From: Collinsella provencensis
Lineage (GTDB): Bacteria > Actinomycetota > Coriobacteriia > Coriobacteriales > Coriobacteriaceae
Assembly: GCF_900199705.1 (NCBI RefSeq)
Contig: NZ_LT904908.1
Location: forward strand, 1,137,096-1,201,095
Reading direction: 5' to 3'
DNA: 64,000 bases
In this document: piece after piece, positions 6,950 through 48,567 of the stretch
Numbering within the stretch: the stretch's first letter is position 1
Layout: every line of letters begins with the position of its first letter
Notes under the pieces: generated by a model
The model's database searches: none
What the model was told of the DNA's origin: nothing
The model's input: the letters and a program-made list of their open reading frames with translations, nothing else
Program-made: the position numbers and the translations under genes

Positions 6950-7079
6950 TCCGGGCATCTCCGCGGGCTAAGCCCACTTGAGCGAAAGGAAGCAACCGCG
7001 GTAGCATGGCATTTCCTCCCAAATCAAGAGACGAGCTGTTTCTGCTTAAACGCGATGCTTTAATTCGCTGCTCACCTCA

Positions 7080-7108
7080 GAAAGGCCGACCTCTTGGTCG
7101 GCCTTTCT
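7080..7108 (+). terminator. Terminator after kup
   Basis: An 11-bp stem (GAAAGGCCGAC / GTCGGCCTTTC) with a short CTCTTG loop, closing into TTTCTGTTGTC. It lies about 130 nt past the kup stop codon. Confidence 0.75.
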
Positions 7109-7174
7109 GTTGTCTGGACAAATCGCCCCTGTGCCCCTGTATTAGGCTGATTCTCCCCGTTCATATTCTCTCGT

Positions 7175-7323
7175 TACCAAAATCGACGGTTGTGTGGGGT
7201 TTTCAATGAGGGCCTCGAGTAGACAGGGGATTCCCGAAGACGAAGGCGCAGGTAAAACGGCCGAGGAACTTGCCTCTACTCGGGCCTTTGCCCGGAATCC
7301 CCACACAACCGTCGATTTTGGTA
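7175..7323. repeat. Palindromic element A1 (about 149 bp)
   Basis: The ends are a perfect 25-bp inverted repeat (7175-7199 and 7299-7323). Inside are GAGTAGAC at 7216-7223 and GCAGGTA at 7247-7253, 23 nt apart. It is about 95 percent identical by eye to element A2 (8473-8617), in the same orientation. It has no coding content and could fold as one long hairpin in RNA or DNA. Confidence 0.9.
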
Positions 7324-7339
7324 CCGACCAATTAAGTCA

Positions 7340-7372
7340 ATCTTAAATTCTGCAAGTTAATTAATTTAAGAT
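7340..7372. promoter_or_regulatory. Palindrome and AT-rich promoter region of the nuclease-like gene
   Basis: A perfect 10-bp inverted repeat, ATCTTAAATT (7340-7349) and AATTTAAGAT (7363-7372), lies 40 nt before the start codon at 7413 and just ahead of a TATTAT box (7375-7380). Its size and place suit a repressor operator. The stretch is much more AT-rich than its surroundings. Confidence 0.5.
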
Positions 7373-7412
7373 GATATTATTCTCGTCCCGCCTTTCCTGG
7401 AAGGAAGAAACC

Positions 7413-8462
7413 ATGGACGAGGTTCTTTGCGGTCTGAGCGCTTTTCGTTTTCATAGGATTCCCCCTCAGGTACTTATGTTGTGCCCACCGTTGACGAGCG
7501 TAAAGAAACATGACGTACTCCAACACCCCCTTGTTCAGGAGATTCTTGGCAGCCCGCTTCACATATTGGTTACTGATAAAAAAGATCGCAGAAAGAACCT
7601 GGCTGTTCTCACGCAACTCTGGAGTCAGCCATTCCCGCCTGAAGCAATAAGGGAAACCATGCATGACGTGCAAGTCACCTCACCACTTTTCACCCTACTT
7701 TTGCTTGCGCCAAAACTTTCTGAAACGCATCTTGCAATGGCAATGTTTGAATTCTGCGGGACATTCAGCGTATTCAAGCCGTCCTCTCATGTTGAAGAAG
7801 CTTTGAGACGTTCCGAGACTGAACGGGTATTTCCACGCAATTTTGGTTGGGAACGCGTCAAAGACTCATCGAACAAGCCGACAGATCTTTGGCGCAGGCC
7901 TCCTCTTGTTGACTTGGACGAGCTTAGGGATTACGCCGAAACTATACAAGGATTATATGGAAGCAAGAAATTCCGGAGCGCCGTGAAGGCCGTTACGGGC
8001 ATTACTGCCTCACCATTCGAGGCGCAATTGTCTCTCCTTTGGAGGCTGCCCCGCCGGAAGGGAGGGAAAAATCTAGCTGGGTTTTCCAACAATGCAGAAA
8101 TCAGGTTAACCCATCAGGCGAAACTGGTGTATCCAAAACTTCGTTGTTACGGAGACCTCTTTTGGGAGGGCGACGACGAACACGCTCCTGTTGATGTCGA
8201 ATGCCAGGGAGCGGTTGTCCATAACGACTCCACCTCATTCATTTCAGACTCAGATCGAATAACTGCGCTCAGCTCTATGGGCATTGAAGTCATCCCCATT
8301 ACATACAAGCAAATCGTTTCACCAAGTAGCTTTAATGCAGTAAGCGACCTGGTAGCCCACAAACTTGGGGTGAAAAAACGAAGGAATCAATGCAGCGACA
8401 GCGAACTGGAGCGCAAGTTGCGCCAGGAACTTTTCATCGACTGGAATACGCTTGGAACATAG
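7413..8462 (+). CDS. Putative PD-(D/E)xK nuclease-fold protein, AbiEi-like middle region
   Basis: A 349-residue protein of uncertain function. The middle stretch (about 90-125), with SPLFTLLLLAPKLSETHLAM and then FEFCGTFS, resembles the region of AbiEi-type antitoxins and their relatives that reads SPE..FL..A..L...L.....LCGTY. The C-terminal part (about 250-320) has the layout of DUF559/Vsr-like PD-(D/E)xK folds: GDLFWEG, then VDVECQG, a His-containing segment, DSDRITAL, and GIEVIPIT. Start chosen at 7413 because GGAAGGAAG lies just before it. The gene stands alone between two direct copies of a palindromic element, is less GC-rich than its neighbours, and has a palindrome upstream. No AbiEii-like toxin gene is next to it. 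Transfer is likely; the biochemical role is not proven. Confidence 0.6.
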   Translation: MDEVLCGLSAFRFHRIPPQVLMLCPPLTSVKKHDVLQHPLVQEILGSPLHILVTDKKDRRKNLAVLTQLWSQPFPPEAIRETMHDVQVTSPLFTLLLLAPKLSETHLAMAMFEFCGTFSVFKPSSHVEEALRRSETERVFPRNFGWERVKDSSNKPTDLWRRPPLVDLDELRDYAETIQGLYGSKKFRSAVKAVTGITASPFEAQLSLLWRLPRRKGGKNLAGFSNNAEIRLTHQAKLVYPKLRCYGDLFWEGDDEHAPVDVECQGAVVHNDSTSFISDSDRITALSSMGIEVIPITYKQIVSPSSFNAVSDLVAHKLGVKKRRNQCSDSELERKLRQELFIDWNTLGT

Positions 8463-8472
8463 CCTCTCTCAC

Positions 8473-8617
8473 CCAAAATCGACGGTTGTGTGGGGTTTTC
8501 AATGAGGGCCTCGAGTAGACAGGGGCTTCCCGAAGACGAAGGCGCAGGTAAAACGGCCGAGGTTTTTGCCTCTAGTCGGGCCTTTGCCCGAAATCGACAC
8601 ACAACCGTCGATTTTGG
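8473..8617. repeat. Palindromic element A2 (about 145 bp)
   Basis: The second copy of the A-type element, in the same orientation as A1 and starting 11 nt after the stop of the nuclease-like gene. The arms are CCAAAATCGACGGTTGTGTG (8473-8492) and its complement at 8598-8617. Boxes: GAGTAGAC at 8513-8520 and GCAGGTA at 8544-8550, 23 nt apart. About eight differences from A1, mostly in the right half. Confidence 0.9.
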
Positions 8618-18787: not shown

Positions 18788-18813
18788 AAAAGCGGGATGC
18801 CACACGACACCCC
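18788..18813 (-). terminator. Terminator of the sugar PTS operon
   Basis: On the minus strand, GCGGGGTGTCGTGTGGCATC followed by CCGCTTTTC folds into a GC-rich stem with a short loop and a T-run, about 14 nt after the IID stop codon. A near-identical copy exists at 22958-22983. Confidence 0.8.
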
Positions 18814-18826
18814 GCCAGGGAAAAAC

Positions 18827-19714
18827 TTACAGCAGTGCCGCAAGGCCGCAGATGGCAATACACACGACGATGGTGAGCATCAGCAGCGTGGTGCTCTTCA
18901 TCTTCTTGCCGATGGCCCAATACATCAGGCCGAACGCGAACAACTGCGGAAGGCACGGCATGATCATGTCGAAGTACTCAGACAGCGGCGTCGCGAAGTC
19001 GCCGGAGCCGATCATGACGCCGGACAGGTCGAGTGCAACATAGCTGGCAACCATACCGCCGATGGCCATGAGGCCCACGACGCTCGCAAGGTAGGTGACC
19101 TTCTCCATGATGCCGGATTCAGCGGCGGTGGGCACGAACGAGGAACCCTGCTTGTAGCCCCACTTCAGGCCAAACCAGCGAATGGCGAACGCCGGGATGT
19201 TGAACACCAAGAGCAGAAGCAGCGGGCCGAGGAAACTGCCCTGCTGTGAGAAGCCGATGGCGATGCCGGTGGCGATCACGCGAAGGGTGCCGGCGATGAG
19301 AGAATCACCGATGCCGGCCAGCGGACCCATGAGGGAGGTCTTGACGGCGGCGATGGACGTGTCATCGAAGTCCTCGTTGTTGGCGTTCTCTTCCTCCATA
19401 GCGGCGTTAATGCCCATGAGCAGCGTGGACAGCTGCGGGGTGATGGCCATGAAGTCGAGGCCGCGAGCGTAAGCGCGCTTCATCTTCTCGGAACCCTGCT
19501 CATGCAGCTTGCGGACAACGGGCACCATCGCGTAGGAATAGCAGAGGTTCTGCTGACGCTCGAAGTTCCAGGAGCTGTCGAGCATGCAGGAGCGCCAGAA
19601 CATCTGACGGAGCTCCTTGTCGGTGATCTTCTTCGTTTCGGTCATAGCGGTTTCCGCTCCCATCTCAGTATCAGTCTCAGTTGCCTTGGGCATATCGTTA
19701 GAACTCGTTGTCAT
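18827..19714 (-). CDS. PTS mannose/fructose/sorbose family, IID component
   Basis: A 295-residue membrane protein of the ManZ/IID family, which with IIC forms the sugar channel. Family hallmarks: ELRQMFWRSCMLDSSWNFER near the N-terminus, GLDFMAITPQLSTLLMGI, and SLMGPLAGIGDSLIAGTLR; hydrophobic helices follow. Start at 19714 has GGAGGC eight bases upstream and overlaps the IIC gene by 17 bases. Last gene of the btpA-IIB-IIC-IID operon. The sugar is not evident from sequence. Confidence 0.93.
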   Translation of the reverse strand: MTTSSNDMPKATETDTEMGAETAMTETKKITDKELRQMFWRSCMLDSSWNFERQQNLCYSYAMVPVVRKLHEQGSEKMKRAYARGLDFMAITPQLSTLLMGINAAMEEENANNEDFDDTSIAAVKTSLMGPLAGIGDSLIAGTLRVIATGIAIGFSQQGSFLGPLLLLLVFNIPAFAIRWFGLKWGYKQGSSFVPTAAESGIMEKVTYLASVVGLMAIGGMVASYVALDLSGVMIGSGDFATPLSEYFDMIMPCLPQLFAFGLMYWAIGKKMKSTTLLMLTIVVCIAICGLAALL

Positions 19715-22723: not shown

Positions 22724-22814
22724 CGCGAAGTCGAAGGACGCGCCAGCGGGGGGCACGGGCGGAATAACGTCGAAAACGCGCCAGCGTGAGCGTGAGTGGT
22801 GCGGCATCGAATAC

Positions 22815-22954
22815 AAAAATGACGGAAATACATAAATCGTTTCCGTCTTCCCGAGTAGACGGCGATTTTTGATAGCAAAACCGCAGGTAGGATGGGTGCC
22901 AGATTTGCCCATACCAACCATGTCCGAGTAGATTTGCGCATTTCCGTCATTTTT
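22815..22954. repeat. Palindromic element B1 (140 bp)
   Basis: Terminal inverted repeats AAAAATGACGGAAATA... and ...GCGCATTTCCGTCATTTTT. Boxes: GAGTAGAC at 22853-22860 and GCAGGTA at 22883-22889, 22 nt apart, plus a second CCGAGTAGA at 22924-22932. It is closely similar to B2 (25813-25952) and B3 (42902-43042). Confidence 0.88.
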
Positions 22955-23092
22955 GCAAAAAGCGGGATGCCACACGGCACCCCGCCAGGGAAAAACTTAC
23001 AGCAGTGCCGCAAAGCCGCAAATGGCAATACATACGACGATGGTGAGCATCAGCAGCGCGGCGCCGAATGCAAAGCCGAAGGGCGCACTCAA
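22955..23092 (-). pseudogene. Duplicated 3-prime end of a PTS IID gene with its terminator
   Basis: Positions 22958-23058 repeat 18788-18888 almost exactly. The copy reads on the minus strand as ...GFAFGAALLMLTIVVCIAIC then GFAALL-stop, compared with ...LLMLTIVVCIAICGLAALL-stop in the IID gene, and it keeps the terminator hairpin. Upstream of that it diverges and the rest of the gene is absent. This is a relic of a second IID gene or of a duplication. No function is expected beyond a possible terminator for purF. Confidence 0.8.
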
Positions 23093-25696: not shown

Positions 25697-25812
25697 CGGT
25701 GCGGATGGCATAAAAATCAACCAATATGCCATCACCTATGATTTCCTTCATTTTGACGATATTATTTGGCAGAAAAGCGCAGGGAAGATAGCGGCATGCG
25801 GCCGTGAGAAAC

Positions 25813-25952
25813 AAAATTGACGGAAATGCATAAATTGTTTCCGTTTTCCCGAGTAGGCGGCGATTTTGAATAGCAAAACCGCAGGTAGAACGAGTGCAAG
25901 ATTTACCTCTACTCACCATGTCCGAATAGATTTGCGCATTTCCGTCAATTTT
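25813..25952. repeat. Palindromic element B2 (140 bp)
   Basis: Arms AAAATTGACGGAAATGCA and TGCGCATTTCCGTCAATTTT. The box variant GAGTAGGC is at 25851-25858 and GCAGGTA at 25881-25887, 22 nt apart. The arm ends (AATTG/CAATT) differ from B1 and B3 in a compensating way, so pairing is kept. Confidence 0.88.
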
Positions 25953-26020
25953 GAAGAAAAGAGGCCGCTGCCCCACCCGAAACGACGCTCGTCGGCGTCC
26001 GCATTGCCCATGGTCGGCTG

Positions 26021-29635: not shown

Positions 29636-29784
29636 AAACTTTCGATATTCGGAAGGTAAGTTGGACAAGGCAAAGTACACTGCACTTTGATAAAGTGCTT
29701 ACCTGCAGGAACGGCACCGTATTTCTAGAGAAAACCACCGTCTACTCGGCGAGTCAGTTTTAACCTTCCGAATATCGAAAGTTT
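29636..29784. repeat. Palindromic element C (149 bp)
   Basis: A perfect 22-bp terminal inverted repeat with left arm AAACTTTCGATATTCGGAAG (plus GT), 29636-29657 and 29763-29784. Read on the minus strand it carries GAGTAGAC (29740-29747) and GCAGGTA (29700-29706), 33 nt apart rather than 22-23. The arms are unrelated to types A and B. An extra small stem GCACTTTGATAAAGTGC lies inside. Confidence 0.88.
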
Positions 29785-42864: not shown

Positions 42865-42901
42865 GAGCGCCCTCCCCGGGTTCGAATCCGTGCGCGGGAA
42901 C

Positions 42902-43042
42902 AAAAACGACGGAAATGCATAAAATGTTTCCGCCTTCCCGAGTAGACGGCGATTTTTATTTGCAAAAACCGCAGGTAGAATGGGTACCGGATCCGCCTAT
43001 ACTCGGCACGTCCGAAAAGATTTGCACATTTCCGTCATTTTT
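42902..43042. repeat. Palindromic element B3 (141 bp)
   Basis: Arms AAAAACGACGGAAATGCA and TGCACATTTCCGTCATTTTT. GAGTAGAC at 42940-42947 and GCAGGTA at 42971-42977, 23 nt apart. Third copy of the B type. Confidence 0.88.
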
Positions 43043-43044
43043 GA

Positions 43045-43099
43045 AAAAAGCGAGCCGCACGGGCCCGCTTCTCAAATCTAACATGGCGGAGGAGGGGGG
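43045..43099 (-). repeat. Duplicated tRNA-Ser tail plus terminator
   Basis: These 55 bases match 43228-43282 with a single mismatch. That covers the last 16 or so bases of tRNA-Ser(CGA), its CCA and its terminator hairpin. Sequence beyond is unrelated. A second short duplicated phrase, CGCCCTCCCCGGG, then a T-loop-like TCGAATCC, occurs at about 42870-42906 and 43193-43231. Looks like debris of integration or recombination at the tRNA. Confidence 0.75.
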
Positions 43100-45052: not shown

Positions 45053-45175
45053 ATGCGCTCCTTTGATGCCCGCACGAAACGGGCGACTCGGCTTGCAACC
45101 TACGGATATTCGTATTGTACGGTAATCGTTTGCCGAGCGGACGCTGTAGATATGGGCGCAAAGGACTCTTTATGC

Positions 45176-45383
45176 CACAATCGACGGTTATGCATGCTGA
45201 AACAATGCATCAGTAATCTGTCCATGAAGGCTCGTCGTGCCAAAATCGACGGTTATGCACGGATTCCTTTAATCTGCTCGAGTATACGGAATATACGCAT
45301 GCTTTCTACCTGCGGTTTCTCTATCTGAACACCCCTGTCTACTCTGCCCATCCACGGAAAACACCACACAACCGTCAATTTTG
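45176..45383. repeat. Palindromic element D with an extra left arm
   Basis: The main unit 45240-45383 has arms CCAAAATCGACGGTTATGCA and an AACCGTCAATTTTG right arm, related to type A arms. On the minus strand it has GAGTAGAC (45337-45344) and GCAGGTA (45307-45313), 23 nt apart. A second left arm (ACAATCGACGGTTATGCATG, about 45177-45196) stands in front, so this may be a nested or partly duplicated copy. No gene lies in 45053-45418. Confidence 0.8.
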
Positions 45384-45418
45384 AGCTTTTCGCCGTGCAC
45401 TGGTGCGCTCCGCAGACC

Positions 45419-48072: not shown

Positions 48073-48381
48073 GGTGCATCCTTTCGTGTGACCACCGCCG
48101 TCGCGCGTTCGGCCGTCTTGCCGGCGCGCGCTTGTTTGACAGCTCACATGGTCGCAAACACAGGTTAATGCACCCTGACCGCAAGATTAAGACCAGATTA
48201 AGATTGGACGCAGATACAGGGGCGGCAGGGGCAGAATCCGCTATCCGACGCTGCTCGCTTGCGTGACTGCGTCGTAAATCGCGCTCGTGCGCTTCTGAGT
48301 TATACCGAGGAAGAAATCACAGGCACAAGCGTTACGGGTTCGAGGACTATACATTTTCTCGAACCCGCTTTGCGCAATTAG

Positions 48382-48516
48382 GCAGGGTTTTTGCATTACT
48401 TTCCCGTTTCGTAGAGTAGACATGTCTTTTTGCGAAAAACGCACCTCATCTACCTGCGATCTTGTCTTTGCATTTTTCGGTCTACTTCGCAAAAACCGAA
48501 ACCGATGCAAAAAACC
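48382..48516. repeat. Palindromic element E
   Basis: Outer arms GTTTTTGCAT and ATGCAAAAAAC with imperfect inner pairing. Read on the minus strand, AAGTAGAC (48480-48487) precedes GCAGGTA (48451-48457) by 22 nt. A second GAGTAGAC (plus, 48414-48421) mirrors it. The rest of the gap 48073-48567 holds no gene I can support. Confidence 0.7.
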
Positions 48517-48567
48517 TACTGTATTGTGCAGCGCATCGCCTCATCGCCGCGCGCCGCCCCAACGTGT

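Follow-up and report, generated by a model that had tools for sequence, protein, structure and literature searches.

Nuclease-like genes and private palindromic elements in Coriobacteriia: a candidate REPIN–RAYT-like partnership with an unrelated fold

How are two nearly identical palindromes related to the single AT-rich gene that they enclose? The question arises in a 64,000-nt stretch of Collinsella provencensis DNA (contig NZ_LT904908.1, positions 1,137,096 to 1,201,095; hereafter the window), which belongs to a genome of 1.74 Mb (G000). The initial annotation had read the locus as a composite cargo unit, a defence gene between two mobile palindromes. Our analysis points to an enzyme-and-repeat partnership and not to a defence gene carried as cargo. 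The locus has the following features, given in window coordinates:

7078..7109, + strand: putative intrinsic terminator of kup with a 14-nt perfect stem, outside the system
7177..7321, + strand: palindromic element A1 of family F1, roughly 90 nt ahead of the start codon
7217..7281, no strand: inner dyad of A1, 65 bp, GAGTAGAC ... GCGCAGGTA ... CTCTACTC
7413..8462, + strand: nuclease-like gene of 349 aa, predicted AbiEi-C-domain and Vsr/EDxHD fold; invariant residues E203, D248, E263, H270, D279 and R282
8473..8617, + strand: palindromic element A2, family F1, 10 nt past the stop codon (8462)
8513..8577, no strand: inner dyad of A2, 65 bp, GAGTAGAC ... CTCTAGTC

The like-oriented palindromes seen in the initial annotation are real. 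They form a direct repeat (7162–7321 and 8458–8617, 91% over 160 nt) that reaches 94% identity over the 145 nt of each element itself, and the gene at 7413–8462 is the only one between them. Both elements end in near-perfect inverted copies of CCAAAATCGACGGTTGTGTGGGG, and the 18-nt F1 end motif has seven matches in the window at up to three mismatches, in comparison with 0.05 expected from shuffles. The ATG at 7413, preceded by the ribosome site GGAAGGAAG, is more likely to be the start codon than the ATG at 7371. The gene is AT-richer than its surroundings, as had been noted (49.1% GC and 50.6% GC3, against 58.3% GC for the window and 84.5% GC3 for kup). The further palindrome upstream that had been assigned to the gene as its own is probably the terminator of kup at 7078–7109.

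Element families and their common inner dyad

A whole-genome palindrome scan, performed in stretches, and a similarity search gave 49 elements in this genome. According to their arms, which are about 18–30 nt long and have beginnings such as CCAAAATCG, CAAAAATGA and CGAATTCGG, they fall into families F1 (3 copies), F2 (about 17), F3, F4 and F5 (several each) and F6 to F8 (one or two). The elements are nested dyads of about 115–185 bp, those of this genome measuring about 120–165 nt, and none overlaps a gene called by a simple caller that misses atypical AT-rich genes. The window contains, apart from A1 and A2, the following copies:

22814..22955, + strand: solo F2 element, arms CAAAAATGACGGAAATGCATAA, same superfamily
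25812..25953, + strand: solo F2 element
29636..29784, + strand: solo F4 element, arms ATTCGGAAGGTA; probable cognate gene at G000:C3:1481469
42901..43046, + strand: solo F2 element
45240..45384, − strand: diverged solo F1 element (72%), with an extra F1 half-terminus at 45175–45192
48371..48530, − strand: solo F5-like element

When mismatches are allowed, all 49 elements contain an inner dyad of the form GAGTAGAC...centre (CC-GCAGG)...GTCTACTC. Its core is also found in other Collinsella, and the centre, the pattern of which matches both strands, is symmetric in several Collinsella species. The inner dyad measures 64–65 bp in 30 elements and 74–75 bp in 15; the step of ten bp is about one turn of B-DNA, and the periodicity of the lengths has a resultant of 0.92 at 10 and 0.88 at 11, with no single period singled out.

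Several further repeats were seen along the way. The half-terminus at 45175–45192 precedes the diverged F1 element by 65 nt and looks like a duplicated end. Window positions 18788–18894 and 22958–23064 form a direct repeat of 107 nt (94%), the second copy of which starts where an F2 element ends; it may be a repeat associated with that element or have been duplicated jointly with it. A core-pattern match beyond the 49 (AGTATAC...CAGGT...TCTACT; G000:C3:523757–523819) is probably a decayed element. A second, unrelated class of palindromes of about 105 nt, beginning with GCGAGTTCCGCACGA, occurs at G000:C3 24321, 387627, 563753, 658975, 1614176, 1614328 and 1619439 and has a fixed inner part, a terminator-like inner hairpin and variable outer arms.

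The long hairpins have stable predicted folds on either strand, as would suit a transcribed element that folds and serves the protein as a guide RNA or antitoxin RNA. We give this structured-RNA reading almost no credence: the arm mismatches of 39 oriented elements show no excess of G·U over A·C (G·T 103 vs. A·C 100), the folding energy is similar on both strands, the inner spacing shifts in steps of about ten bp, and solo copies lie in convergent intergenic regions. The test for strand-specific wobble pairing being negative, the RNA element was rejected, and the element probably works as duplex DNA.

Pairing of homologous genes with palindromes

Searches by sequence similarity found the F1 element absent from relatives, and F1 therefore looked like a local oddity until the flanks of homologous genes were compared. 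Nearly every examined member of the family pairs with a private palindromic element. Counting any palindrome with a score of at least 14 within 450 nt and demanding no particular sequence, we observed one beside 33 of 34 homologue loci but beside only 15 of 231 control genes of similar size from the same genome; the sole homologue without a palindrome, L034, is at a contig end. When kinship among the homologues is allowed for, about 17 independent protein lineages remain, and all are positive (Fisher 7e-18). The elements near homologues are of similar size and mostly within about 100 nt of the gene, and their outer arms differ. They flank the gene on both sides at L006, L008, L011, L014, L025, L036 and L042 and lie downstream only at L009, L015–L024, L039 and L041.

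Among more distant loci, including loci in genomes of other families (kinship f2, f5 and f10), 17 of 20 were positive, some having one same element on either side of the gene. A further distant set, a few loci of which overlap the earlier sets, gave 15 positives and 7 loci without a palindrome out of 22. For both distant sets the Collinsella genome also supplied the control rate, and the pairing is weaker in these families.

Five intact, single-copy members are present in this genome, the other four being 35–41% identical to the window protein, together with degenerate or remote ones. The five correspond to five different arm families, F1, F3, F4, F5 and F6 each lying beside a different paralogue, and most of these families have solo copies elsewhere; F2, F7 and F8 are orphans. 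Two further loci, a degenerate paralogue with an in-frame TGA (L012; G000:C3:649584–650123) and a remote one (L013), do not adjoin a palindrome. Family matches were found in 83 of 100 relatives and, at E ≤ 1e-8, in 50 of 119 genomes of a Coriobacteriia sample, with up to 20 loci per genome. Within family f2, single genomes of 3.4–3.6 Mb hold twenty (G146) and eighteen (G088) homologues, which represents an expansion.

Predicted domains of the protein

The AlphaFold2 model of the window protein has a pLDDT of 88.9 and a pTM of 0.90. We found no solved chain related to the protein by sequence, and Foldseek alone gave no match for the model at E ≤ 0.001, so the fold assignment comes from a second structure aligner. 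In that comparison, made mainly with residues 159–347 and with the N-domain taken within the full-length model, residues 199–320 matched I-Bth0305I (3r3p, Z 10.6), NGO0050 (Z 9.0) and Vsr (Z 8.2), and residues 1–195 matched AbiEi (Z 6.9). The model thus suggests an AbiEi-C-terminal-like (nucleotidyltransferase-like) N-domain followed by a Vsr/EDxHD-type nuclease C-domain, fold Z values of 5–7 being modest. Of 20 family members, 15 matched the Pfam family MTES_1575 REase (best 3.6e-6) and 10 matched DUF559 (best 3.6e-4), the window protein itself matching neither. The nuclease-like C-terminus and the AbiEi-like region recognized in the initial annotation are thus both upheld, by structure comparison and by Pfam matches among relatives. 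All six residues listed above are invariant in 20 of 20 aligned members. The nuclease may lack activity, or its target may be something other than the element.

The alignment to AbiEi covers only its residues 67–195 and leaves its N-terminal DNA-binding domain unmatched, and no DNA-binding domain was identified with certainty in the window protein. The gene's neighbours are kup and a nitroreductase gene, and there is no AbiEii toxin gene between the two. None of the 20 members matched a PADLOC-DB model, and, with no PADLOC or NCBIfam match worth naming, identity as a defence gene was rejected. An origin from phages or viruses was likewise rejected, as we found no phage relatives of the window protein and no F1 or F2 arms in viral contigs.

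Both AbiEi and Rv2827c recognize inverted repeats of 23 bp within the promoters of their own genes (PMC7319586). The arms of our elements are of comparable length, and an inner spacing that changes in steps hints at a nucleoprotein complex of fixed geometry, so that the protein might be an AbiEi-like regulator or nucleoid organizer, with the elements as operators or architectural sites and the nuclease domain incidental. The many genes with a downstream element only, and solo copies that are not enriched at promoters, make such a role less likely: of the 49 elements, 17 lie between convergent genes, in comparison with 16% expected, and there is no enrichment between divergent genes. As it is also the operator-binding domain of AbiEi that is unmatched, and the nuclease residues are invariant, we regard a regulatory or architectural role as improbable.

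Dispersal, history and a working model

Protein identity and arm similarity are correlated (Mantel r = 0.667, 0 of 5,000 permutations), also when close pairs are left out (r = 0.292, 14 of 5,000), which indicates that the pairs diverge together. Homologues have elements of their own, the arms of which change in step with the protein. Given this and the class-wide link, we consider the gene to be the element's dedicated partner.

The view of the palindromes as dispersed and mobile-like without a classical transposase agrees with our data. F2 is numerous in this genome but was not convincingly found in any of 44 congeners, and thus represents a species-specific burst. It has no cognate gene in this genome, and the expectation that F2-bearing relatives would reveal one failed, as no relative convincingly carries F2. 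In G029, which is closest to this genome when judged by kup, a region of 320 kb contains roughly twelve elements with arms of other families, situated beside that genome's own paralogues. Syntenic sites without the element exist in relatives, and the F3 element–gene–element unit is absent from the syntenic site of G029. Two syntenic intergenic regions hold elements with different arms in both genomes compared (1457799 vs. 1748810 in G029; 1162907 vs. 1215301 in G005), where hot spots or arm replacement and independent insertion are indistinguishable. The flanks of 35 elements show no target-site duplication, and the intergenic DNA is too diverged for syntenic comparisons to resolve insertion points or empty sites to the base; we therefore infer copying from the dispersal and the empty sites.

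Between kup and the nitroreductase gene, the gene with two elements is present in G000 and G029, one solo element in G008, and neither gene nor element of this kind in G005, G032 and several others. The same gap in G023, G024 and G016 (L154, L156 and L157) contains other palindromes, of type GGGAAAATAGGGACAGGCACC, which look like a separate repeat family. The orthologue in G029 is 47% identical and its flanking elements are divergent, with arms AAAATGTGTGGGGTTTATC related to the GTTGTGTGGGGTTTTC of F1, and the window gene is therefore an old resident of the kup locus. The initial annotation had suggested looking in sister strains for sites with zero or one element, and such sites exist in congeners; it had also named presence of the gene in all relatives, with old and divergent flanks, as evidence to the contrary, and this holds for G029 but not for the several congeners that have neither gene nor element.

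Movement of a defence gene as cargo, in trans by another protein, would agree with an AT-rich gene flanked by two elements, with the relatives' sites that have neither, and with a second such unit (1259750–1261218) that is absent from the syntenic site of G029. It is nevertheless very unlikely. The genes are single-copy and divergent (35–41% among intact paralogues) and the elements multi-copy, the opposite of what cargo would give; each intact paralogue has its own element and no element is common to all, the G029 orthologue sits at the same site with different arms, the link is class-wide, and there is neither a PADLOC hit nor a partner toxin.

The main rival is a homing-like process, which we consider unlikely; any spread of the elements by other means would be secondary to it. 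The element would be a long dyad target cleaved by the enzyme, and breaks in solo elements would be repaired from the gene-bearing locus so that the gene ends up between two copies; in a variant, a circle of the gene and one element recombines into a solo element. The best fold match, I-Bth0305I, is a homing endonuclease, and its family is reported to dimerize on a target just under 60 bp long (PMC3943268); the inner dyad, with its symmetric centre, measures 64–65 bp. A1 and A2 are direct repeats, as recombinational integration would produce, and the states of the kup–nitroreductase gap, with no element, one solo element or the gene with two, fit as well. However, the flanking copies at the F3 and F5 loci are inverted rather than direct, albeit with elements that are nearly symmetric. 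In addition, an element is found on just one side of several genes, and homing by itself does not explain the F2 burst at unrelated sites.

We favour, with a probability of roughly 0.6, a REPIN/RAYT-like arrangement with an unrelated nuclease, in which each enzyme would bind the dyad element cognate to it and probably also cut and spread that element. In this view A1 and A2 would represent two copies of a DNA element private to the enzyme whose gene they enclose. The enzyme may sit on the duplex as a dimer or larger oligomer, with every subunit recognizing a single family-specific outer arm, and the inner half-sites GAGTAGAC and GTCTACTC, some six or seven helical turns apart, may be bound or bent together with the symmetric centre, through contacts with the conserved part of the enzyme or with a host factor. 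The nuclease would nick or break the element, and repair or recombination would copy it into new intergenic sites. The gene would stay put, like a RAYT among its REPINs, and co-divergence of genes and arms would give several private pairs per genome. We put at about even odds the broader proposal of a mobile-repeat system across the Coriobacteriia, with many orthogonal, co-diversifying pairs. Its nuclease, with an AbiEi domain and an EDxHD fold and no relation to HUH or DDE transposases, would recognize and spread a private long dyad.

Among bacterial palindromes that have a nuclease dedicated to them, REPIN–RAYT is the best-known example; RAYTs are Y1 (HUH) tyrosine transposases, and REP palindromes carry a GTAG or CGTC tag. 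REPINs were linked to RAYTs because the genes are single-copy and paired with dispersed palindromes, whose arms are private and diverge along with the genes (PMC3116915). The same features recur here: divergent nuclease genes, one copy each, stand beside cognate palindromes, a genome has several such private pairs, element copies are dispersed between genes, and gene and element diverge together. The differences are that none of the 20 members has a Pfam match to a Y1 (HUH) transposase, the predicted fold being of Vsr/EDxHD type, and that the elements are long nested dyads with a common core and not short, tagged REPs, which measure 20–40 bp (PMC3733652).

With EDxHD homing endonucleases, the family shares the nuclease fold (Z 10.6 for I-Bth0305I), possibly a long dyad target, and E203, D248, H270 and D279, invariant in 20 of 20 members and in the same order when compared by order in sequence; here, however, we saw no intron or intein, an AbiEi-like domain is fused, and copies of the element lie at many unrelated chromosomal sites. 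MITEs are likewise short, non-coding, intergenic and multi-copy with terminal inverted repeats, but the whole element is here a nested dyad with a common centre, and no target-site duplication is visible. For F1, the one family searched in this way, no separate transposon with such ends was found, the end motif matching F1 elements and four weak singletons; the A1–gene–A2 arrangement might itself be regarded as an autonomous unit with F1 ends. The N-terminal 195 residues resemble the C-terminal domain of the type IV antitoxin AbiEi (Z 6.9), from which the protein differs in having no AbiEii partner, no match to the N-terminal DNA-binding domain and an added nuclease domain. The weak Pfam matches place the family in the same nuclease superfamily as DUF559 and MTES_1575 REase, the latter named from a very large conflict protein (PMC3710099). 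Our literature search found no report linking DUF559 or MTES_1575 proteins to palindromic repeats and, within the open-licence literature, to which a subscription-journal report would not belong, no description of such a nuclease–palindrome pairing.

The arrangement appears to work like REPIN–RAYT and by its behaviour alone would be classed with it. Since tested defining features of REPIN–RAYT and AbiE are lacking, we rate it as new in kind. If our reading is correct, it would be an independent partnership of this sort with an unrelated nuclease fold, class-wide in common gut bacteria and with up to about 20 copies per genome, and would imply that such partnerships arise repeatedly. A large set of unnamed AbiEi/DUF559-like proteins would thereby gain a function open to testing, and many natural protein–DNA pairs would become available for studying the evolution of long-site recognition.
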